The position numbers and the translations under genes were made by a program. Below, in pieces: positions 6,951 to 36,943 of a DNA stretch of 58,283 bases. Source of the DNA: a virus; the IMG/VR virus record IMGVR_UViG_3300020477_000026, positions 1 through 58,283 of that record; one strand, 5' to 3'. Each line of letters starts with the position of its first letter. The stretch's first letter is position 1. The notes under the pieces were generated by a model that made no database searches, was not told where the DNA came from, and worked only from the letters and a program-made list of their open reading frames with translations.

Positions 6951-7522
6951 AGATACCCTCTCAGGTATTCCCCCAATCCCTTAGAAATGAAATTTGGATG
7001 AGAATCCAAGACAACGATTGGGTACCTCGAAAAAGAGTCCTCGAGGACGATAACTATCAAGGTAACATAAGTTGGTGTAAAACGACAATCCATCCATCGA
7101 TGGAAGCTAGATATAAAGAGATATTCTCTAGTAATCTATCTGATCAGCTCAATGAGATCATTAGACCTCAACAGGTACTATTGTCATTGCAGAAGATAGA
7201 TAAGAACAAAGCGTTTGGTGTTCACTTTGATCAGGACATATGTTCGATCCAAATGGTACTAGGAGGTGACAAGTTCACTCCTGTTAAGTTTTGGAATGCC
7301 GATCCTAGAGCCGATAGGTTGTTTCTGGAGTGGGGTAACTTCCCATACCCAGATGCTACATTGAACTACTCTAATGATATATTTTACCTAAATACCACTA
7401 AGTGGCACGACAATAATGGACTCAAGGGTGATAGGTATCTGCTCAGATTCATTCTTAATTTGAATCAACAGAGCCATCTTAACTATGAGTACTTCAAAGA
7501 GAAGTTGAATGGAATACTATGA
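6926..7522 (+). CDS. Putative 2OG-Fe(II) oxygenase-like protein
   Basis: 198 residues; GAGGAGATCC precedes the ATG, which overlaps the upstream gene by 25 bases. H100-x-D102 in FGVHFDQDICSIQMVLGG, distal H161 in TTKWHDNNGLKGDRYLLRFI with R170 or R174 as the candidate 2-oxoglutarate-binding Arg. This is the His-x-Asp...His...Arg order of the superfamily. Substrate unknown; its stop overlaps the radical SAM start, implying coupled synthesis. Confidence 0.6.
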   Translation: MSATDFYLKIPSQVFPQSLRNEIWMRIQDNDWVPRKRVLEDDNYQGNISWCKTTIHPSMEARYKEIFSSNLSDQLNEIIRPQQVLLSLQKIDKNKAFGVHFDQDICSIQMVLGGDKFTPVKFWNADPRADRLFLEWGNFPYPDATLNYSNDIFYLNTTKWHDNNGLKGDRYLLRFILNLNQQSHLNYEYFKEKLNGIL

Positions 7523-8429
7523 ACTGGCGCCTGAGGATAATCACTTCCACAGTATAGTAGCAGATATAACGCACAAGTGCAATATGAATTGTGCAAATTG
7601 CTACATCCCTAATAGAGACGTACCAGATATAGATCTTCACAGGCTTTTAGATTCTATCTCTAAGCTGCCTACGCGTACGTGGATAAGATTGATAGGTGCA
7701 GAACCTACTATGCATCCTAATCTACCGTATATAATACGTGCAATCATTGGACTAGGGCACCGTTGTTCATTAACAACCAACGGTCTCAAACTAGCGTCTA
7801 ACAAATATCTCGACCAGTTAGTCGATGCTGGAGCATACTATTTTCTTATCAGTATGAACGGAGCAGACGACGATATCATTTACAAGGAGCTAGACAGTGG
7901 CTCATATGCTGGGTTAAAGGTAAGGGCGCTAGAGAACGTGTTAAAACGCAAATTAACCGTGAATACAGGCACTATTATAGCAAAAGGTGTCAACGAGATT
8001 ACATTAAAGAGACAACCTGAGTTAGTCGTTGAGGTGGCTAAACGTGTAGGGATAAGGTTCGATCAAAACCCATGGAAACGTATCACACCTGTCCTACGTA
8101 TTAAGAGTGTAGGTGATATAGGTAGAAACATGGGTGGCAGTGCTACGTATCAAATGGAAGACATGATTGATATGTGCCGCAAACAATTTGGAGTAAAAGA
8201 ATTCACAAGAGTCGAAAGCGGGTTGAACTTGCTGAAGCATGGTGATGGACCTTCTTATACATTTGACATACATACAGATGTAGGTTTAATTCATGTCAGG
8301 CTTGTTGACTGGGCTGTAGATGAAGATGGAGTAGTTGATGCAGGAAACAAAAACAGAGGACGATTCACACAAGATTTTAAAATTGCCCCTTTCTTCGAAC
8401 ACGTTAAGAAAAACGAGTTTGGATACTAA
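7509..8429 (+). CDS. Radical SAM enzyme
   Basis: 306 residues. The cluster motif THKCNMNCANCYIP gives C24-x3-C28-x2-C31, binding the [4Fe-4S] that cleaves S-adenosylmethionine. It is followed by an SAM-binding GAEPTMHPNLP (a GGE-like motif) and a partial TIM-barrel pattern. No second SPASM-type Cys set is evident at the C-terminus. The start overlaps the oxygenase-like gene upstream by 14 bases and the TauD-like gene follows directly, so the three act in one pathway by context. Target (peptide, base or sugar) unknown. Confidence 0.88.
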   Translation: MEYYELAPEDNHFHSIVADITHKCNMNCANCYIPNRDVPDIDLHRLLDSISKLPTRTWIRLIGAEPTMHPNLPYIIRAIIGLGHRCSLTTNGLKLASNKYLDQLVDAGAYYFLISMNGADDDIIYKELDSGSYAGLKVRALENVLKRKLTVNTGTIIAKGVNEITLKRQPELVVEVAKRVGIRFDQNPWKRITPVLRIKSVGDIGRNMGGSATYQMEDMIDMCRKQFGVKEFTRVESGLNLLKHGDGPSYTFDIHTDVGLIHVRLVDWAVDEDGVVDAGNKNRGRFTQDFKIAPFFEHVKKNEFGY

Positions 8430-26661: not shown

Positions 26662-26783
26662 TAGTCTTCTCCTTTAGTTAGTGTCTTCATATATTCAGAC
26701 GTTTTTTGTAATTTCAATTTCCCATATTTATCTGTAAGCCGAGCTTCTTCTTCCTTCGACTCTTTTTTCTTTGGTTCAGCCAT
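26661..26783 (-). CDS. Small charged protein, 40 aa
   Basis: Both ends overlap neighbours as TAATG (26781-26785 and 26659-26663), so it is a coupled link between two structural genes. Product MAEPKKKESKEEEARLTDKY and GKLKLQKTSEYMKTLTKGED is highly charged and helical. No family recognised; perfect fit to an otherwise unexplained gap supports it. Confidence 0.7.
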   Translation of the reverse strand: MAEPKKKESKEEEARLTDKYGKLKLQKTSEYMKTLTKGED

Positions 26784-29761
26784 TAGTTATAGTGTCCTGA
26801 AGCTGATCTCACACCATGACGTTTTGATTGTGTTTTATCAATAGCCATTGGATCTTTCTTTTGGTGAGCCGGACTCTTTGATAAGTCATGGCCACCAGCT
26901 ACAACACCTAATGCTTTTGGAGAATGTTTCATGTGCTTTTGCATTTCTTCTTTTTCAGCCGGCTTGGCTTGATTATACCTATGCAAAGCAGCCTGTGCAA
27001 CAGTTGGGTGGACCTTTTGCTTTCCACTATCAAAGTGCACACCATCATGGTTATGACCAACAGAAACAACTTTTCTCAATTGCATGGCAATATGTTCTGG
27101 CTCTTCTTTAGATGACTTTGTCACTCTATGACCAGAACGCTCAGTTTCACCAACCTTGGCTCCTCCACCTTTACGAGCTTCTTCAATCTCTTCGATTGCT
27201 TCTTGCTGCTCTGGTGTGTAATCTTCTTTCATTTTCTTCTTTTTGTGACCATGGTTCATTTCAGAAATGACTTCGAGGTCATTACTATCAACAATTTCAA
27301 TACCATGTTCAAACTGTACACTATACCAAGCTACTTCTCCATCAACTGGATCAGCATGCTCTCCATGAACACACTCACCTTCACCATACTGTTCATGAGC
27401 AACCTGCTTCATGCACATATGTTGTACATTGGCTGGATTCTCATCTGCTTCAGCTAGTGCGGCAAGTTCTTCATCTGACCAAAATGTTTCAGCATGTTCT
27501 CGAGCTACGGCATGACCACCTTTCTCTTTACTCTTCATATGGTCCGACTTATTGTAGAACTTCTTGGCAATTGACATATACTTTGCAGCAACTTCTGAGT
27601 TTCCAGAGCTACCAGCTTGTTTAGCTTTCTGGTAGTAATGCTTAGCAAGTTCTGCAGCCTGACCTGCACTTCTTACTTTTTCATCTCCAGCGCCTTCTTC
27701 AATTGTAATTTCAGTTTCTTCGTTATGTCTTTGAAGTTGTTTTTGAATCTTGGGATGGTCCGAGATACCAGGAGTTATCTTCTCCATTTTCTTAACAGCA
27801 CCAGTCATATTGCCACCAGAATATCTCTTGTCAGCAACAATACCAGCGGCTTGTTTAATTTGGTCTGACGTAAAACCAGAAGGCTTCTTTTTGAATGTCT
27901 TCATTCCATCACCAGAAGCCATGCGTTTCATAGCACCTTCTTTCATGGCTTTTTTGATAGCCTTACGACGATTGTGAAGATACTTGTCAGATTTATCTAC
28001 GTCACCATCGTTGTCAATGTCATCATCTTCTTTACCAACTGGATCAAGTTTTCCTTTGCCTCTCAATCCTTGGGTGAAGTCCATCTTTGGAGCCTTCATG
28101 GTAAAATTTCTTTCCATGATGTCCTCATAGTCATCAAGGAATGCATTAACCTGTGTTGACAAACCAATGCTTTCTTCAATTTCAACTTCTTCAGAAGCAT
28201 ATGCAGGTTTGCCCATATTGGCTCTTTGCTTTTTAGCTTGATCTTTGACAGCTTTAAGTTTTTGTTTTGCCAAACTTGCAGCAGCCTTTTGTTGAGCTAT
28301 CTTTTTCTGAGCCTGCATCTTAGCTTGAATTTTATCCGTCTTAGCTTGGATCTTTTGTGTTTTTCTTTCAGCAGCATCTGCACGACCTTGGGTCGACATT
28401 CTACCAGCTGCCATTCTACCAAGTTTCATGGCTCCTCTACCAGCAGCCATGGCTCCTTTACCAGCTATTTTAGCGGTACCCATAACTGCTTTACCGCCTA
28501 ATCTTGCCATTGCACCGACAAGCTCTTCTAGCTCTTCGTAAGAGGCTTCGTTGATTAAATTATCGAATTCATCATCCGACATCTCAACTACATAGTCAAG
28601 CATTTCCTCGGTGAACATTTCGTTGTAGTCAACACCTTCTTCAACAGACTTCTTTTGCTTTGAAGAAGTCATACGATGATGGCTATATAGATCATCATCA
28701 TTTTCCCTTTTCTTAGCTATAGCAGCCCTGATTCTCTCAGCTCCAGCTTTCTGTCTTGCAGTTGCCATTGGAGCTGCTTCATCAACTTCGATATCTTCTT
28801 TAGCAACCTTTTTACGAGACATAGCGTCTTTGAAAGCCTGTGCTCCACCAGTTCTTGGACCACTGGGTTTCGGCCGAGCATAGGCCTGACCTTTATTGAT
28901 CTTTTTCATAAGAGCCATATAGCCTTTAGTAACTCCAGCTCTATTGTAGAATGAGTCTTTGGCTTCATCAACTTCGATGTCTTCCTTAGCAACCTTTTTC
29001 TTTTTCATGTCGTTAAGGTTGAATTTCTCACCCTTCCTATTCATCCGGATGCCTTTTTTCCAATCATCTTTCGAAACGCCTTTGTCACCATACATTTCTC
29101 TATGAGCATACCATCCGTCATCAACTTCCATTTCGTCAATATCATCATCTTCTTTAATACCAGCAACGGTTCTCTTGACAATTTCCTTACCACCTTGAGC
29201 AGTGCCTTTAGCGGTTGATACAGTACCGGCTGCACCACCTTTACCGGTGTCTTTCAAGCCACCCACAACACCTTTACCGGCTGCTACAGCACCTCCGGCA
29301 ACACCTTTTGCAGCTCCCTTAGTAGCAGCTGCTGTTCCACCAGCAACACTACCAGCAACCTTACCTGTTGTCCTTGCGGCACCACCAGCAACCTTGCCAG
29401 CAGTCTTCATCGTACCACCAGCAACCTTACCAGCTACTCTTGCTGTACCACCAACAGCTTTACCAGCTGCTTTTGCTGCACCACCAATGGCGCTACCAAT
29501 TGCACCACCAATGCTTTCTTTTACATGCCTGACCCTAACACCAGAATCTTTGGCATCATCAACTTCTGTATCAGAAAGTTTCTCTCCAACTTTGATACCA
29601 CCATGAGCTGCTAGCTTCTTGCCAACTGCCTTGACAGTATAGTGTGTTCCATTAGGGTGAGGCTCGAGATGCATCTCCATTGCCTCTAGTACTTCTTCTT
29701 CGTTATCTAAAACAGCCTTAGCTGCATCTAAGACGCTATCTGAAAATCCAAACCTGTTCAT
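26783..29761 (-). CDS. Large head-internal/prohead-core-like protein, 992 aa
   Basis: N-terminal MNRFGFSDSVLDAAKAVLDN, then an Ala/Gly/Lys repeat region (~85-180; units like AGKVAGGT), a duplicated KVAKEDIEVDEA segment, an EF-hand-like DDDIDNDGDVDKSDKYLH, and a C-terminal basic tail. Several (V/I/L)xE followed by A or G (VDE|A, INE|A, IEE|G) match T4 prohead protease gp21 sites, implying cleavage during head maturation. Late-region context. Likely packaged inside the head; assignment to gp67/68-type core or internal protein is inference. Confidence 0.65.
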   Translation of the reverse strand: MNRFGFSDSVLDAAKAVLDNEEEVLEAMEMHLEPHPNGTHYTVKAVGKKLAAHGGIKVGEKLSDTEVDDAKDSGVRVRHVKESIGGAIGSAIGGAAKAAGKAVGGTARVAGKVAGGTMKTAGKVAGGAARTTGKVAGSVAGGTAAATKGAAKGVAGGAVAAGKGVVGGLKDTGKGGAAGTVSTAKGTAQGGKEIVKRTVAGIKEDDDIDEMEVDDGWYAHREMYGDKGVSKDDWKKGIRMNRKGEKFNLNDMKKKKVAKEDIEVDEAKDSFYNRAGVTKGYMALMKKINKGQAYARPKPSGPRTGGAQAFKDAMSRKKVAKEDIEVDEAAPMATARQKAGAERIRAAIAKKRENDDDLYSHHRMTSSKQKKSVEEGVDYNEMFTEEMLDYVVEMSDDEFDNLINEASYEELEELVGAMARLGGKAVMGTAKIAGKGAMAAGRGAMKLGRMAAGRMSTQGRADAAERKTQKIQAKTDKIQAKMQAQKKIAQQKAAASLAKQKLKAVKDQAKKQRANMGKPAYASEEVEIEESIGLSTQVNAFLDDYEDIMERNFTMKAPKMDFTQGLRGKGKLDPVGKEDDDIDNDGDVDKSDKYLHNRRKAIKKAMKEGAMKRMASGDGMKTFKKKPSGFTSDQIKQAAGIVADKRYSGGNMTGAVKKMEKITPGISDHPKIQKQLQRHNEETEITIEEGAGDEKVRSAGQAAELAKHYYQKAKQAGSSGNSEVAAKYMSIAKKFYNKSDHMKSKEKGGHAVAREHAETFWSDEELAALAEADENPANVQHMCMKQVAHEQYGEGECVHGEHADPVDGEVAWYSVQFEHGIEIVDSNDLEVISEMNHGHKKKKMKEDYTPEQQEAIEEIEEARKGGGAKVGETERSGHRVTKSSKEEPEHIAMQLRKVVSVGHNHDGVHFDSGKQKVHPTVAQAALHRYNQAKPAEKEEMQKHMKHSPKALGVVAGGHDLSKSPAHQKKDPMAIDKTQSKRHGVRSASGHYN

Positions 29762-30045
29762 TTTGTGTCTCCTTTTTGAACTCTGTTTCTTAACCTTCTG
29801 AAGATTTCGTTGTCGTCCTCAACAGCGTCCATGAAAATTGATAGTAATTTGTATAGTTTCTTTCGTAATCTTGGAACCATTAGACTTTTTTCACCAGTCC
29901 TAATAGCTCGTCTCATCAATTCCAGATCTTTACGATCTTCCATACCAAGTAATAACAATCGTTGCAAGTTCTTGGGTACGACATTTTCATCAAGGTCCTG
30001 TGCAAGTTCTTCATGTTTATTTATAAATTCTTCGAACTTCTTCAT
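29758..30045 (-). CDS. Small helical structural-region protein, 95 aa
   Basis: ATGA overlap with the next gene. All-helical and charged: EFINKHEELAQDLDE, KNLQRLLLLGMEDRKDLEL, RLRKKLYKLLSIFMDAVEDD. Occurs as a link between the two giant internal-protein genes. A TATAAATA octamer at 30018-30025 falls inside its coding sequence and may be chance. No family name known to me. Confidence 0.6.
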   Translation of the reverse strand: MKKFEEFINKHEELAQDLDENVVPKNLQRLLLLGMEDRKDLELMRRAIRTGEKSLMVPRLRKKLYKLLSIFMDAVEDDNEIFRRLRNRVQKGDTK

Positions 30046-30293
30046 TAGCTTTCTACCTTAGAACCCGCTCTCCACTGCTTGCAACTCCAATATCTAGCTT
30101 TTGTTCTAGGGCCTGGATTGTCACAATTATGCCGTGCACGAAAAGACTTTCTCCGTTTAGGGGAATCCCTTTTAATTGATAGGTTTGGATCACCAAACCT
30201 TACTGTTTTATCATTACCAGTTTTAGGATCCTTTACAGTAACTTTAAACTTCTTAGGACCACCTGGTGTTCTTTGAATCTTACCGTATGCCAT
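30045..30293 (-). CDS. Small basic conserved phage protein, 82 aa
   Basis: Starts MAYGKIQRTPGGPKKFKVTV, continues TVRFGDPNLSIKRDSPKRRK and ends with SFRARHNCDNPGPRTKARYW and SCKQWRAGS. Strongly basic with two conserved Cys. This protein is widespread in marine T4-like phages (DUF5754-like by memory) and may bind DNA. Shares one base with each neighbour's stop/start. Confidence 0.7.
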   Translation of the reverse strand: MAYGKIQRTPGGPKKFKVTVKDPKTGNDKTVRFGDPNLSIKRDSPKRRKSFRARHNCDNPGPRTKARYWSCKQWRAGSKVES

Positions 30294-33200
30294 TAGCTTG
30301 GATCCTTCTCTTCATATCTTGCAAATGGTCGACCACCATCTATTGAGTAATGCTTTGGTCTATTTTTATAAGACAGCTTCTTGATAGAATACCCCTTTGC
30401 CTTCATATCTTTATGAATTTTATGAGCAGACACTTCTTTGTTTGTGCTCTCAGGACTTCTTGAAAGTCCTCTATCTGTATCAACTTTCTTCAAAGGAATC
30501 TTTTTCTTTACAGTATGATACGTTCCATCATTCTTACCAGGCATACTATATGTGCCTTTGTGGTATTCTACTGTAGCGTGATGATCATCATCCTCCTTCA
30601 CTTCTTCTTTAGTATAACCTTGCCTTCTCATTTTTTTCTCAGTAGCAGACATCGACTCTTTTTTCTTCGGAGTCACCATCCTCATAAGAGGTGCATTCTT
30701 ATAAGCCTTTGTCATAAGAGTATTGATTGCTTTAGCCATTGCCTGGTGTTGTCTCAAAGTAGCAGCAGGCCCCATCTTATATGCTTCTAACTGCTCACCA
30801 TCAGGCTCATAGCTATTCATTTGAGATTTTTTCATACCGTGATGCACACTTGCATCAAAGGCACCTGACTTACCTACTGTAGATGGATTCTTTAAAGGAT
30901 CAGCATAATTAGCTTTTTTCTTCAACTTCTTCTCTGCTCTTTCTCCACCTTCAAATCTTTTTGTTTGTCTATGAGCATCTTTTTTGCCATATAAAAAATC
31001 TATATAAGGATCCTCTTTTTCTGTACCAGAGTGTTTGTCATACTTCTTAGCAGTTTTAAGTGCATCACCTTGAGATTTCAAGTGATAGCTTGCTAATGTT
31101 TTTGTACTGAGTTCTAACAAATCAGCGCCTGATCTTTCTTCGTTTTTGCTATCTTTTTTCTGATCCGGTTTTTCACGTTTTTTCTTCAATCGATTCAAAA
31201 ATTCAGTCCGTTTTTGCATATCAGAATGATCACTTCTCCAATCTTCATTGGTATCTGGCTTCTTAGCTTTGTGTGCAGCCTCATGATCCTTCACCAGTTT
31301 GTCAACGGCCTTTTCTCTTTTTCTCTGTTTCATCTTGTCATGGATCTTTTTAGCAGCATAAAGACCAGCACCTGCAACTACAGCCTTACCAGCATGATCA
31401 CCAACTTTGGCTCCAATATCTTGACCAGTCATCATGCCATCCCAGCCACCAACTGCACCACCAATTGTACCACCAGCAACTCTTCCCATTTGTCTCCCGA
31501 CGAATCCTTCCTGTTGAGCGTCGTTGTGCATAATATCAGCAAACTTTTGGCCTTCTTTAGAAGATTGTTTCTTACTTATTTTCCAACCTTGCTTTTGATT
31601 ATGATGAACGAGTTTACCTAAAGTTGTTTTCTTTGCACCACTAGGATGTTCCAAATCTACTGATACTTCACTTATTTGACCTGAATTCACTTTCTTTTCA
31701 GCTTCCTTTTCAGCCGCTTGTCTCTTTATCAATTTATCAAGAGCTTTTTCTCTTCTTCTCTTTTTTATCTTGTCAGCAATCCCTTTACCAGCACCGGCAG
31801 CAGCGCCAATCCCTGCTCCTACTGGGCCACCCGTTACGGCGCCAATTGCACCGCCCAAAACCGCTTTCCCGATAACTCCTTCGTCAACATCACTTTTAGC
31901 ATCTTTATCTAAAACTTTCTTTTCTTTGACCTGTTGCATTGGTGGATTTAAAAACAACTTGACATTGCCTTTTTGTTTACCCTTTGGCTCTGGCTTTGCA
32001 GCAGCTCCTGGTGCATCTGTGTTTTGGTCTTGAGGAGCGTTCTCCTTAACAGTTTTCGTCGTATTCTTTTTGAAGTCTTTGAGGCCTGGTCGTGACCGCG
32101 GGAACGCGTACTTTTGCTTCTTCATTAAGTCAGCTAATTCTTTACCAGCTGGGATAGGATCTTTACGATTAGTCCATCCAGCTTCATCAACTTGCTTAAC
32201 TTTCTTTTTCGATTGGATTACTTTGTCACCAGTCGTTCCTGCATTTGTTGTTGCACCACTACCCATTGACTGATAGTTTTCTTGTGACCAACTAACAGCG
32301 CTTTTTGCTTTAGGAAAAGCCTTGTTTTGTTTCTTTGGATCTTGCTTTATCCTATAGGATGTCTTATAGGATTTTCGTTTTCCTTCACTATCACCAGCTT
32401 TAACATTATAGTTTTGTTGGCTATATGCTTCAAATTGATCATCCTCACTAACACCAACTTTTGCCTTTGAAACTTTCTTAGCGGTTGTACCTAGATGACC
32501 TGATTTTGCCAACTTATCATGAGCTAATTTAACACCAGAATATCTGTTGTCTACTTTCTTAGTAGACAGCTTTCTGTGCCCTCTAGCATCTGATGCTTTT
32601 GTTGAATATTCAGAAGCTGTCTTGGCTGAGATCTCAGCAACTGGACGATACCCATCACCACTTTCACCAGGTGTTGCTTTCTTCCAGAATGCAGTAGCCT
32701 CTGGTGTACCCCAATCGAGTACATACTCAACTAAGTCTGGACGTGCAAGGAATGCATTGAGTTTGTTCCATGCAACTTGTTGAGGTGTATGCCTACTATT
32801 CTTATCCCATTCTTGAATCCCTGCATCGTATACTTCTTTGAGTACACTATATGGAACATTGTGCTCAATAGCCTTTTCTGTTAGCTTTTTAACTTCTTTC
32901 TCAGACAATACATAGTCATTGCACATAATACTATCAACAAACTTGAAGATTGTTTCTTCTACTGTTGGTTGAGCTTTGGCAGGACGCTTGTTTGCTGTTC
33001 TTGCATTGATCTCTTTATATTTTTCTTTTGTTTTGAAAGCAGGAGTTTTCTTGGCCACATCAACACTAACTGGTGTTGGTGTCTCGAGCAAATTGATGTA
33101 CTCAGAGAAAACTTCATTAACTTTCTTTGTTCCACGACTTTTCAGTCTTATTAGTTCTGCCTTTCTCATAACTGGTAGCATCCTCTTTGCTATACGATTG

Positions 33201-35146
33201 ACGATGGCTTGCTTTTTAGCAACCCTTTGATCAACCATAATTTTCTCTTGGGGTGTTAATTTATAGTACTGCACTCCTTTCTTACCAGCAACACGCTTAC
33301 GTATTGCACGAATGGCTGCCTTACGAGCTCTTTGAGCTATATTCTTTTCAGGTGCCTTTCTACGAGCCATCATTCTTTTGGCACGAATCATTTTTGGACG
33401 GTGGCGTCTCATTATCATCTTACGTTGAATTCTTTGCTTGTATGTTAATGCTTCGTCAATTTCACCTTCATTAGTAAAGTCTTCAAATGCCTCGTTTGCT
33501 TTCTTAGCTACTGATGTGGCAATTGCCATTTTCTTGTCCATAGGCATGTTTGGATTATCCCTTTTTATTGCTTGAGCCACTTCTTCTCTTTTTCGTTTCT
33601 CAGCGGCAGTTAATATTTTTTCTTTTATATCCTTCTTTGATCTAATTGTACCTGTAAATGGAGCATCTTTTCTAGCAGACGGAGTTACAGTTGGACCTGA
33701 AAGGTACGGACCTTCTAAAATGGTCGACTCATTCATAGCATGTTTCTTTGCAATATCCTTAGCGTGATGATCAATATCTATATGAGATTTTTCATGTTTG
33801 TGTAAATTAAAAACAACTGTATGGCTATAATTCACCTTACCTGTTTTTTTGTTTGTGCCATGATTTTTAACTCTCATACGATATTGCGTATCACCATTTA
33901 GAGGCTTAGTTCCAAGTTTACCGTGATCTTTATCGGTATGATGTAATCCGGAACCACCAATTTGCATGTAAGGAGTTTTACGATCCTTTCCATAATGATC
34001 TCTAATAGCATGCGTGCCTGTTACCGTATGATATATGTTGCCATGCTTTTTTCGATCCTTATGGTAGTCACCAGAAGGCTTGCCAATCTTTTCGTTAATG
34101 TGAGGAAGAAAGTTCTTTTCAATATGCTTTGCTGTCTTAGGATAATCTCTCTTTGAAGATGCCTTTACCTTCCACGACTTACCATCATGATGCAGTCCAA
34201 TTTGACCCATCATAGCACTTTTGTTCTGTTTAATCTCAAGATTGTGATGTTTACCACTAGCATGAATTGTTCCGTCAGGGGCATCTGTAGAGGAACCAGC
34301 ACTACCTTGACCCTTCTTTTGCAAGCCATGCTTTTGAAGGTGGCCGTTTACCTGTCTTTCATAAGCAAAGCCGCCTTCTGCTTTCTTTTCTGTAATGTAC
34401 TCTTCAAACTGCTCATCTGCTCTGGAAGGACGTTTCATTATACCTAACTTTCTATCTAATGCAGCACCATGCAGCTTGTCCTGCATCTTTTTTCTTTTTG
34501 TCTTTGGTTGTTCTCTAGGATCTTTACGTGCAAAAGCTCTTTGCTGGAATGGTGATAGCTTAAAGTTAACGATTTCTTCAATCTCTTCATTAACATGTTT
34601 CATTATTTCATGAGCATGTGGATGCAAGGCTTTAGGTAAGCCTTTCTTAAATGACTTGTGATCATTAGACTTTGCATGAGCACGCATCTTAGTGCCAGAA
34701 ATACCTTCTGTACCTTCTGCGTCAGGATCTCTTTTGCCTGCTGAATGAATTTTGATTGATTTGTAGTTGTAGTGTCCATGAGAACCCTTCTTACCATTAT
34801 ACTTGTGAAGAAGGGAATGAAACTCTTTTTCACGATCTCCGGCAGCTACAACAGTCAAATGATCATGACCAGCTGCGTGTAGACGTGAGGCATGGTGCAG
34901 TAAAGTAGGATGTTCTTTAGATGAAACAGATACGTTTACACCTTTAGGAGCAACCTTCTTTAAATAACCTAGCTTTTTGTGGGGGTGAATGGGATTCTTT
35001 TCTTTGTCATGGCTATGAGACGCAATAACGTGTGCAGACGCACCCTGGCGTTTGGCCTCTTTATGCACCGCGTGCATCAATTTTTCGTGGCCTGTAGTTG
35101 GAGGATTCATCCTTCCAAAGGCCATGACAGCTCTTTTTTCCGTCAT
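30293..35146 (-). CDS. Giant head-internal polyprotein with nucleotidyltransferase and nuclease-like domains, 1617 aa
   Basis: Residues 1-190: nucleotidyltransferase fold; AFGRMNPPTTGHEKLMHAVH holds the T-x-G-H site and EGISGTKMRAHA the ISxTxxR-type motif, as in NMN/cytidylyltransferases. About 270-340: SSTDAPDGTIHASGKHHNLEIKQ gives a D...ExK PD-(D/E)XK-like pattern. About 600-720: extremely basic Arg/Lys segment. C-terminal half: repeated Gly/Ala 'GKAVLGGAIGAVTGGPVGAG'-type membrane-like stretches and acidic linkers. Many (V/I/L)xE|(A/G) sites (ILE|G, IDE|A, VDE|A, VDE|G) suggest maturation by a gp21-type protease into several peptides packaged in the head and injected. A TATAAATA promoter is 46 bases upstream. 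Confidence 0.7.
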   Translation of the reverse strand: MTEKRAVMAFGRMNPPTTGHEKLMHAVHKEAKRQGASAHVIASHSHDKEKNPIHPHKKLGYLKKVAPKGVNVSVSSKEHPTLLHHASRLHAAGHDHLTVVAAGDREKEFHSLLHKYNGKKGSHGHYNYKSIKIHSAGKRDPDAEGTEGISGTKMRAHAKSNDHKSFKKGLPKALHPHAHEIMKHVNEEIEEIVNFKLSPFQQRAFARKDPREQPKTKRKKMQDKLHGAALDRKLGIMKRPSRADEQFEEYITEKKAEGGFAYERQVNGHLQKHGLQKKGQGSAGSSTDAPDGTIHASGKHHNLEIKQNKSAMMGQIGLHHDGKSWKVKASSKRDYPKTAKHIEKNFLPHINEKIGKPSGDYHKDRKKHGNIYHTVTGTHAIRDHYGKDRKTPYMQIGGSGLHHTDKDHGKLGTKPLNGDTQYRMRVKNHGTNKKTGKVNYSHTVVFNLHKHEKSHIDIDHHAKDIAKKHAMNESTILEGPYLSGPTVTPSARKDAPFTGTIRSKKDIKEKILTAAEKRKREEVAQAIKRDNPNMPMDKKMAIATSVAKKANEAFEDFTNEGEIDEALTYKQRIQRKMIMRRHRPKMIRAKRMMARRKAPEKNIAQRARKAAIRAIRKRVAGKKGVQYYKLTPQEKIMVDQRVAKKQAIVNRIAKRMLPVMRKAELIRLKSRGTKKVNEVFSEYINLLETPTPVSVDVAKKTPAFKTKEKYKEINARTANKRPAKAQPTVEETIFKFVDSIMCNDYVLSEKEVKKLTEKAIEHNVPYSVLKEVYDAGIQEWDKNSRHTPQQVAWNKLNAFLARPDLVEYVLDWGTPEATAFWKKATPGESGDGYRPVAEISAKTASEYSTKASDARGHRKLSTKKVDNRYSGVKLAHDKLAKSGHLGTTAKKVSKAKVGVSEDDQFEAYSQQNYNVKAGDSEGKRKSYKTSYRIKQDPKKQNKAFPKAKSAVSWSQENYQSMGSGATTNAGTTGDKVIQSKKKVKQVDEAGWTNRKDPIPAGKELADLMKKQKYAFPRSRPGLKDFKKNTTKTVKENAPQDQNTDAPGAAAKPEPKGKQKGNVKLFLNPPMQQVKEKKVLDKDAKSDVDEGVIGKAVLGGAIGAVTGGPVGAGIGAAAGAGKGIADKIKKRRREKALDKLIKRQAAEKEAEKKVNSGQISEVSVDLEHPSGAKKTTLGKLVHHNQKQGWKISKKQSSKEGQKFADIMHNDAQQEGFVGRQMGRVAGGTIGGAVGGWDGMMTGQDIGAKVGDHAGKAVVAGAGLYAAKKIHDKMKQRKREKAVDKLVKDHEAAHKAKKPDTNEDWRSDHSDMQKRTEFLNRLKKKREKPDQKKDSKNEERSGADLLELSTKTLASYHLKSQGDALKTAKKYDKHSGTEKEDPYIDFLYGKKDAHRQTKRFEGGERAEKKLKKKANYADPLKNPSTVGKSGAFDASVHHGMKKSQMNSYEPDGEQLEAYKMGPAATLRQHQAMAKAINTLMTKAYKNAPLMRMVTPKKKESMSATEKKMRRQGYTKEEVKEDDDHHATVEYHKGTYSMPGKNDGTYHTVKKKIPLKKVDTDRGLSRSPESTNKEVSAHKIHKDMKAKGYSIKKLSYKNRPKHYSIDGGRPFARYEEKDPS

Positions 35147-35191: not shown

Positions 35192-35199
35192 TATTTATA
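35192..35199 (-). promoter_or_regulatory. T4-type late promoter
   Basis: Perfect TATAAATA on the minus strand (CTTATAAATAG), 46 bases upstream of the 1617-aa gene start at 35146, followed by a leader with GAGGAAAACC ribosome site. Matches the T4 late sigma (gp55) consensus and predicts late expression of the head-internal genes. Confidence 0.75.
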
Positions 35200-35461: not shown

Positions 35462-36214
35462 CTAATTGATTAGTGTAAATGGATTTAATTTCTTTGTGCC
35501 TGGGGCTACGGAGTATTTAGAAGATCTCGAAACGCTCTTTGCTTTTAACTCTGATTGCAGCTCAAAATTCCCTGTTCTGCTACCAACTCTAAGCATAATA
35601 CGATTAGATCCCGTCTTAAACAGAGGAATCTCGTTTCCCAGGCCCAATGGATCCTTTCCACCTATTCTATAAAAATCATCTCCTGTTTGCATGTAATATG
35701 CTGGTTCAGCCTTACCAAAATTGTAATGTAATGTTGCAATGTAACCTATGTCAACATTAATGGTCTCTCCAATATTCTTTGTAGGTTGAGTAGCAAGGTA
35801 CTCTTTCATCTGTTCAGGGGAAACACTATGTGGCTGAGATCTCTCAGTCTTCGTACTATACATTGACAGCTTATCAGGATCAAAGGAATACTTCTCTGCC
35901 ATGTACTTTTTAATGTCAGCAACCCAATCTTTTATGTTAGGGCTCTTGTTGATTTCTTTCAACAAGGCATCAGTAGCCCGAGACTTAGCATCGGGTTTCA
36001 CCTGCCACATACCATCATCATAAAAATATCTAATATTGTGTAGGTTATCTGTATGATTCATTTTAACTTCGACCCATGTTGAACTTGGGCCTGTAATTAA
36101 TATATCTGAATATTTTGAACTCACCTTTGGTCTTGTAGCATTAAAGCCTTCTGGTAACCCATTATCTATTTCACGAGCAACATCAATCTCATACAGCTCG
36201 TCTCTTCGGGCCAT
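35462..36214 (-). CDS. PD-(D/E)XK nuclease-like protein, 250 aa
   Basis: Core motif: KYSDILITGPSSTWVEVKMN gives D37...E49-V-K51, with an upstream Glu in an N-terminal helix (YEIDVAREIDNG), the order of the PD-(D/E)XK restriction-like nuclease fold. C-terminal 150 residues are β-rich with GSNRIMLRVGSRTGNF. Start shares a base with the stop of the gene upstream (36214). Could process DNA during packaging or degrade host DNA; not assigned to a T4 gene. Confidence 0.6.
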   Translation of the reverse strand: MARRDELYEIDVAREIDNGLPEGFNATRPKVSSKYSDILITGPSSTWVEVKMNHTDNLHNIRYFYDDGMWQVKPDAKSRATDALLKEINKSPNIKDWVADIKKYMAEKYSFDPDKLSMYSTKTERSQPHSVSPEQMKEYLATQPTKNIGETINVDIGYIATLHYNFGKAEPAYYMQTGDDFYRIGGKDPLGLGNEIPLFKTGSNRIMLRVGSRTGNFELQSELKAKSVSRSSKYSVAPGTKKLNPFTLIN

Positions 36215-36557: not shown

Positions 36558-36890
36558 TTATGCGTCAGCTACTTCACCCTGTGTAATAATTTCACGTGTA
36601 AATGGGTATGATAAGCTGTTATCACTCATGTATGTGCTTACACGCGTTCCAAGATCGTGGTATGCTGCCTCAGAAGCAAAATATTGATTGCAATGCATAA
36701 CATTGTCAATCAATTCCCACTCTGCAGTCGAAGATCCGTACAGGTTATTATCTGTACCAAGAGCACGACGAGCATTGTTGTGGTCTGCACCCAATGCATC
36801 TACAAAGTGCTTTTGTTTCCAAGAATCAACAGACCAAGTCTCGTTGTCGAGCTTTGAAACAAACTTCGACCGTACTTTCCATTGTGCCAT
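36558..36890 (-). CDS. Hypothetical protein, tandem paralogue 2, 110 aa
   Basis: MAQWKVRSKFVSKLDNETWS then VDSWKQKHFVDALGADHN and NQYFASEAAYHDLGTRVSTY...YPFTREI, matching paralogue 1 in order and spacing. GGAGG ribosome site. Preceded by a good TATAAATA late promoter (36936-36943), so the block 35213-36890 is probably late. Function unknown. Confidence 0.65.
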   Translation of the reverse strand: MAQWKVRSKFVSKLDNETWSVDSWKQKHFVDALGADHNNARRALGTDNNLYGSSTAEWELIDNVMHCNQYFASEAAYHDLGTRVSTYMSDNSLSYPFTREIITQGEVADA

Positions 36891-36935: not shown

Positions 36936-36943
36936 TATTTATA
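36936..36943 (-). promoter_or_regulatory. T4-type late promoter
   Basis: Perfect TATAAATA (minus strand, GATTATAAATATC) 46 bases before the gene at 36558-36890, the same distance as at 35192. Confidence 0.72.

Follow-up and report, generated by a model that had tools for sequence, protein, structure and literature searches.

The window analysed here, a stretch of viral DNA of 58,283 bases that is apparently a fragment of a virus genome, contains an open reading frame of 1617 codons in which a predicted adenylyltransferase-type domain, a nuclease-like domain and a strongly basic module are joined. We propose, with a probability of about 0.6, that a T4-like phage makes its product late in infection as a polyprotein of the head core, fused from internal proteins that were once separate and capsid-targeted. 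A packed transferase is itself already known from related phages; what is new, as judged from sequence comparison, is its fusion to the nuclease with putative targeting and cleavage signals retained inside the fusion, which was not found elsewhere in our sample. On this reading, recognisable targeting leaders connect a 'cytidyltransferase' that is widespread among T4-like phages, and unexplained there, with the route taken by T4 internal proteins; the reading also predicts a HhaI-fold nuclease as cargo of the phage head and names exact cleavage sites that can be tested by mass spectrometry of cultured relatives. The features are listed in Table 1.

Table 1. Features of the 1617-aa reading frame and its surroundings (window coordinates; aa numbering of the 1617-aa protein).
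Feature	aa	Position	Strand	Basis
Whole ORF, predicted head polyprotein	1617 aa	30293..35146	-	modules separate in relatives
HIGH-superfamily adenylyltransferase-type domain ('cytidyltransferase' of PHROGs)	1-190	34577..35146	-	phrog_3041, E 6e-54
Predicted prohead-protease sites VNE(187)/IEE(191) after transferase	185-191	34574..34594	-	site list; inferred
FEEYITE, putative internal capsid-targeting/cleavage element before nuclease	247-253	34388..34408	-	alignment and 7-mer motif
Predicted PD-(D/E)XK nuclease domain, HhaI-like fold	254-475	33722..34387	-	alignment A4 and AF2 model
Short shuffled module around KRDNPNMPMDKKMAIATSVAKK	505-552	33491..33634	-	9 other ORFs, varying contexts
FEDFTNE...IDE, putative internal targeting/cleavage element before basic module	554-565	33452..33487	-	comparison with L004 leader
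Conserved very basic module	566-676	33119..33451	-	found in 43 ORFs
FSEYINLLE, third targeting-like element	680-688	33083..33109	-	third-ranked motif site
DUF5824-like module	741-807	32726..32926	-	L016 aligns here in a part that overlaps its PF19141 match, 2e-18
Two glycine-rich zipper-like stretches with basic tails	1090-1274	31325..31879	-	PF21724 and Gly-zipper_YMGG matches
T4-type late-promoter word TATAAATA		35192..35199	-	46 nt upstream of ATG of 1617-aa ORF
Further TATAAATA		36936-36943	-	46 nt before gene starting at 36890
Further TATAAATA		30018-30025	-	gap before gene starting at 29761
250-aa gene upstream, distant nuclease-domain paralogue		35462..36214	-	hhalign with A2, E 3.3e-6, probability 87.8
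Downstream gene for a basic protein of 992 aa, probably another head polyprotein		26783..29761	-	PHROG matches and motif site

By its sequence the window phage is T4-like: its DNA polymerase has its best matches in Synechococcus phages (47-48% identity), UvsX and a DnaB-like helicase are recognised with PHROGs, and further translations were read as a clamp and clamp loader. The frame first reported in an earlier note on this DNA was borne out by an ORF check, and an in-frame TAG six codons 5' of the ATG excludes an N-terminal extension. The ORF sits between the helicase and primase genes, as does the 'cytidyltransferase' gene of Syn30 and S-SZBM1; in these two phages and in P-SSM2 that gene is near the helicase and accompanied by head-related genes.

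Relatives encode the modules singly or fused in other ways. In our sample of 91 nuclease and 142 transferase ORFs, the window's phage alone joins transferase to nuclease, a rarity that holds for this sample only, since the two large searches each covered at most 80 loci. The lack of a second phage with this fusion would suit an assembly or frameshift artefact that joined separate genes into a single ORF. We consider such an artefact highly improbable, however, as the same junction stands in a second contig (the joined ORFs L002 and L100 both come from it, and it is identical to the window over aa 1-344), these modules are often fused in other ways, and all 1617 codons are open without a stop. 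Joins of transferase to basic module alone were seen in 13 ORFs, the longest of which (L126, at least 1486 aa) runs off its contig. The claim that nucleotidyltransferase, nuclease and basic parts share one ORF stands, whereas 'polyprotein' in the sense of a product that is cut is something that we infer.

Residues 2-190 fall in phage cytidyltransferase families of PHROGs. With the full-length protein as query, 523 phage records match at 1e-5, none of them spanning 80% of it, and among the matches listed nearly all hit through this domain. Other profile searches gave little: the domain scores 14.8 bits with PF01467 (CTP_transf_like), under the curated cut-off of 21 that the relative L016 clears with 27.4 bits, NCBIfam matches are weak only, and a transferase profile run against PDB sequences yielded a single match at chance level (E 0.6). 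An AlphaFold2 model built from 71 rows (pLDDT 90.2) was matched by VIA-align to PPAT (8xsv; Z 14.9, rmsd 2.6, 147 aligned), NadD (Z 13.7) and NMNAT (Z 13.3), and the top Foldseek match is NadD 4wso (E 6.1e-5). These structural matches thus place the modelled aa 1-190 in the adenylyltransferase-type HIGH fold, in keeping with the nucleotidyltransferase fold that the earlier note had anticipated. The TxGH and ISGTxxR motifs on which it relied are present as T17-x-G-H20 and ISGTKMR (from 149) and are kept among relatives, with T17, G19, H20, S150 and R155 invariant in 71/71 rows that were picked by similarity. Motifs of the (H/T)xGH and ISxTxxR types are those of HIGH-superfamily nucleotidyltransferases. 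The name 'cytidyltransferase' is a label and not a result, and the predicted fold is at least as suggestive of an adenylyltransferase acting on small molecules as of an enzyme that modifies proteins. Two transferase paralogues share one locus in L032, L057, L062 and L075.

The D...ExK segment of the second domain was also found as claimed: in an alignment of 46 rows, E59 and K61 are present in 46/46 and D46 in 42/46. The AlphaFold2 model of this domain (pLDDT 90.9) matches HhaI endonuclease best (6uke; Z 11.6, rmsd 4.1, 186 aligned), followed by a homing endonuclease (6.6) and then HinP1I and Hjc resolvases; Foldseek returned no match for it at E <= 0.001. On this model the segment at aa 254-475 is a D...ExK site on a restriction-endonuclease fold resembling that of HhaI-type nucleases, as the suggestion of a nuclease-like domain required, and DNA cleavage is its predicted activity. 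P-SSM2 PSSM2_192 is homologous to it (26%, E 2e-9) but is standalone and leaderless. PADLOC gave no match for either the transferase or the nuclease domain, and a weak REase_II match (E 0.022) for the 250-aa upstream neighbour, which had no phage match of its own.

The third component, the strongly basic module, was likewise correctly noticed (aa 561-680, pI 11.9). Beyond it, aa 690-860 match 16 ORFs in relatives, and segments past aa 860 had no phmmer match in the relatives' loci searched. The glycine-rich stretches match PF21724 (DUF6861; 3.1e-6, 27.2 bits, under the cut-off of 28) and Gly-zipper_YMGG (0.015). The whole protein is basic in nearly all parts, as would be expected if it served chiefly as a scaffold or to condense DNA in the core and carried its enzyme domains as passengers, cut up or inactive once matured; gp21 cuts up the core proteins of T4 (PMC5694885), and in phiM12 gp159 (L014:7341-9149) the basic and DUF modules persist beside a transferase whose motif has decayed to TVEH. 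Against this, both domains keep their active-site residues strictly, though in alignments chosen by similarity, and we regard a mainly structural role as quite unlikely.

Homology, and not the number of sites, gives the best support for a head polyprotein. T4 IPIII starts MKTYQEFIAE, and leaders resembling it are present in 57/95 transferase ORFs compared with 41/1278 minus-strand ORFs; among the open PMC papers listed on cyanophages, there was no mention of capsid-targeting leaders in the 'cytidyltransferase' family. The 1617-aa ORF has no N-terminal leader of this T4 internal-protein type. Standalone nucleases of the nearest group carry the leaders MLKFRGFITE, MKRFKHYISE, MKSFYEHLTE (a few residues in), MLSFRKYLSE and MHRFLSFITE, which end in [IL]xE with the nuclease domain starting directly after, and the internal FEEYITE of the window aligns with the first of these, the N-terminal leader of the standalone L099. 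Similarly, the window's FEDFTNE...IDE is comparable to the L004 standalone leader MLKFTDFIKEE...DEAW, and the boundary of the basic module reads MLKFTDFIKEEQETDEAW in the standalone form and FEDFTNEGEIDEAL in the window, a hydrophobic-x-E (a loose pattern) being found here in 32/40 rows. No standalone homologue aligned at FSEYINLLE. Among 58 non-redundant complete nuclease rows (7 rows lacking the anchor and one with an incomplete start are not counted), 35 have fewer than 9 aa before the domain, and of the 23 with at least 9 aa upstream a cleavage site is present in 13, including the window's phage through its identical contig copy, and lacking in 10, so that many nuclease relatives may not be packaged.

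The earlier note had also pointed to many gp21-type sites, and here the bare count proved weak while particular sites are backed by homology and by a motif model trained on leaders. There are 24 [LIV]xE sites in the protein, with 14 outside the domains compared with 8.6 by shuffling (P 0.039) and 8 inside compared with 5.3, these sub-counts coming from concatenated pieces in which two border sites drop out. The raw xxE count was rejected as cleavage evidence as too weak against shuffling, and so was a crude regular expression whose 3 internal sites were matched by 187/2000 shuffles. A first leader model of 12 columns, which carried a start-methionine bias, put T4 IPIII above all control positions but one and did not single out the internal sites, 29-335 of 4557 control positions scoring as high (29 for aa 253, the best of them). 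A second model had 7 columns and stricter training on 53 leaders of other phages, some of them belonging to standalone relatives of these modules, and was compared with 4617 control positions in 12 proteins. With it, aa 253, 560 and 686 are the top three sites of the 1617-aa protein, equalled by 1, 6 and 6 control positions respectively (T4 IPIII scores at 17/4617), a result that is post hoc because the model was shortened after the 12-column version failed.

The presence of the transferase family in virions is reported for five cyanophages. The T4-GC190 'putative citidylyltransferase' was found in S-SM1 virions (PMC3037559), and the P-SSM2 member of that cluster, PSSM2_194, is the transferase; S-SZBM1_140, which starts with the capsid-targeting-like leader MRFRQFIIE, was detected in virions together with its neighbour S-SZBM1_139 (PMC9146016); NMNAT was reported in S-SCSM1 virions, with S-CBWM1 cited likewise (PMC9602691); and ORF154 of S-CREM2 was found in virions (PMC10665884). 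Membership of this transferase family was sequence-checked for S-SZBM1 and P-SSM2 and follows the authors' naming for S-SM1, S-SCSM1, S-CBWM1 and S-CREM2. Since injection was proposed in PMC9602691 and entry into the host in PMC10665884, an injected nucleotidyltransferase is not the novelty that the earlier note had supposed. PSSM2_194 and S-SZBM1_140 share with the window the transferase family and a gene near the helicase, but are only ~360-425 aa long, with their own N-terminal leader and no nuclease fusion.

The authors of PMC9602691 and PMC10665884 themselves warn of co-purification, and the transferase and nuclease could act late inside the infected cell, in metabolism or replication, and never be injected. 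The position of the 1617-aa gene among replication genes and the many leaderless nuclease relatives would fit such a role. It is nevertheless unlikely in view of the frequency of IPIII-like leaders in transferase ORFs, the reports from five phages' virions, and the boundary sites retained inside the fusion.

Late expression is suggested by the promoter word upstream of the gene, although WATAAATA is not enriched window-wide (8 matches compared with 7.6 expected). Counting redundant rows, the word lies within 150 nt upstream of 21/141 transferase, 21/88 nuclease and 12/42 basic-module ORFs, compared with 122/1634 plus-strand ORFs of at least 120 aa. Under the head-core reading, the gene would be transcribed late and its product would be carried into the prohead core by the internal targeting elements it has kept, and there a gp21-type protease would cut in trans after xxE, at about aa 187/191, 253, 560/565, 678/688 and further sites. 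The fragments released into the DNA-filled head, to be ejected with the genome, would be an adenylyltransferase-type enzyme of ~21 kDa, a PD-(D/E)XK nuclease of ~25 kDa and basic peptides that bind DNA. The transferase would then most likely make a dinucleotide cofactor of the NAD type straight after entry, and the nuclease, kept inactive in the capsid, would most likely cut host or competing DNA. We advance only tentatively, and at somewhat less than even odds, the fuller proposal of an injection polyprotein, in which internal targeting elements and cutting in trans by the prohead protease would serve to deliver an adenylyltransferase together with a nuclease of restriction-endonuclease fold, in a fixed ratio and as the DNA enters; if true, this would be an unusual means of loading several enzymes.

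T4 IPI-III and Alt, with which the protein had been compared from the outset, are head-packaged and injected, with a targeting leader and cleavage after xxE, but are separate genes with one leader each. We know of no transferase of the HIGH fold and no nuclease among them. The comparison holds in that relatives' leaders match that of IPIII, and Alt is processed after ITE-6 and LTE-619 (PMC5694885, available text). Polyvalent proteins, as described in the accessible part of Iyer et al. 2017 (PMC5512222), also unite a number of effector domains in a single polypeptide that is predicted to be injected, but there embedded peptidases are described as freeing the domains, whereas here the prohead protease would cut in trans; no peptidase family is among the Pfam matches of the 1617-aa protein. 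Among the open PMC papers listed on phage polyproteins and packaged nucleases, no such system was found.

The neighbouring 992-aa protein carries FDNLINE at 405, with a motif score equalled by 3/4617 control positions. It also contains repeated KVAKEDIEVDEA units and an EF-hand/dockerin-like stretch, DIDNDGDVDKSDKYL, in common with P-SSM2 PSSM2_195. DUF6267 (PF19782) proteins, of which none was seen in the window, neighbour two of the relatives' genes (L005:6756-7979 and L057:4857-6056); they begin with the capsid-targeting-like leaders MENFSEFITE and MKSFQTYLTE and have a K-x-DG motif (KWDGAP, KYDGSP), which we take to resemble that of nucleic-acid ligases, making a packaged ligase a possible candidate function. 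Elsewhere in the window, a radical SAM protein is encoded at 7509-8429 on the plus strand (Pfam, 1.1e-13), and several of the genes around it look like ones for 2-oxoglutarate oxygenases.
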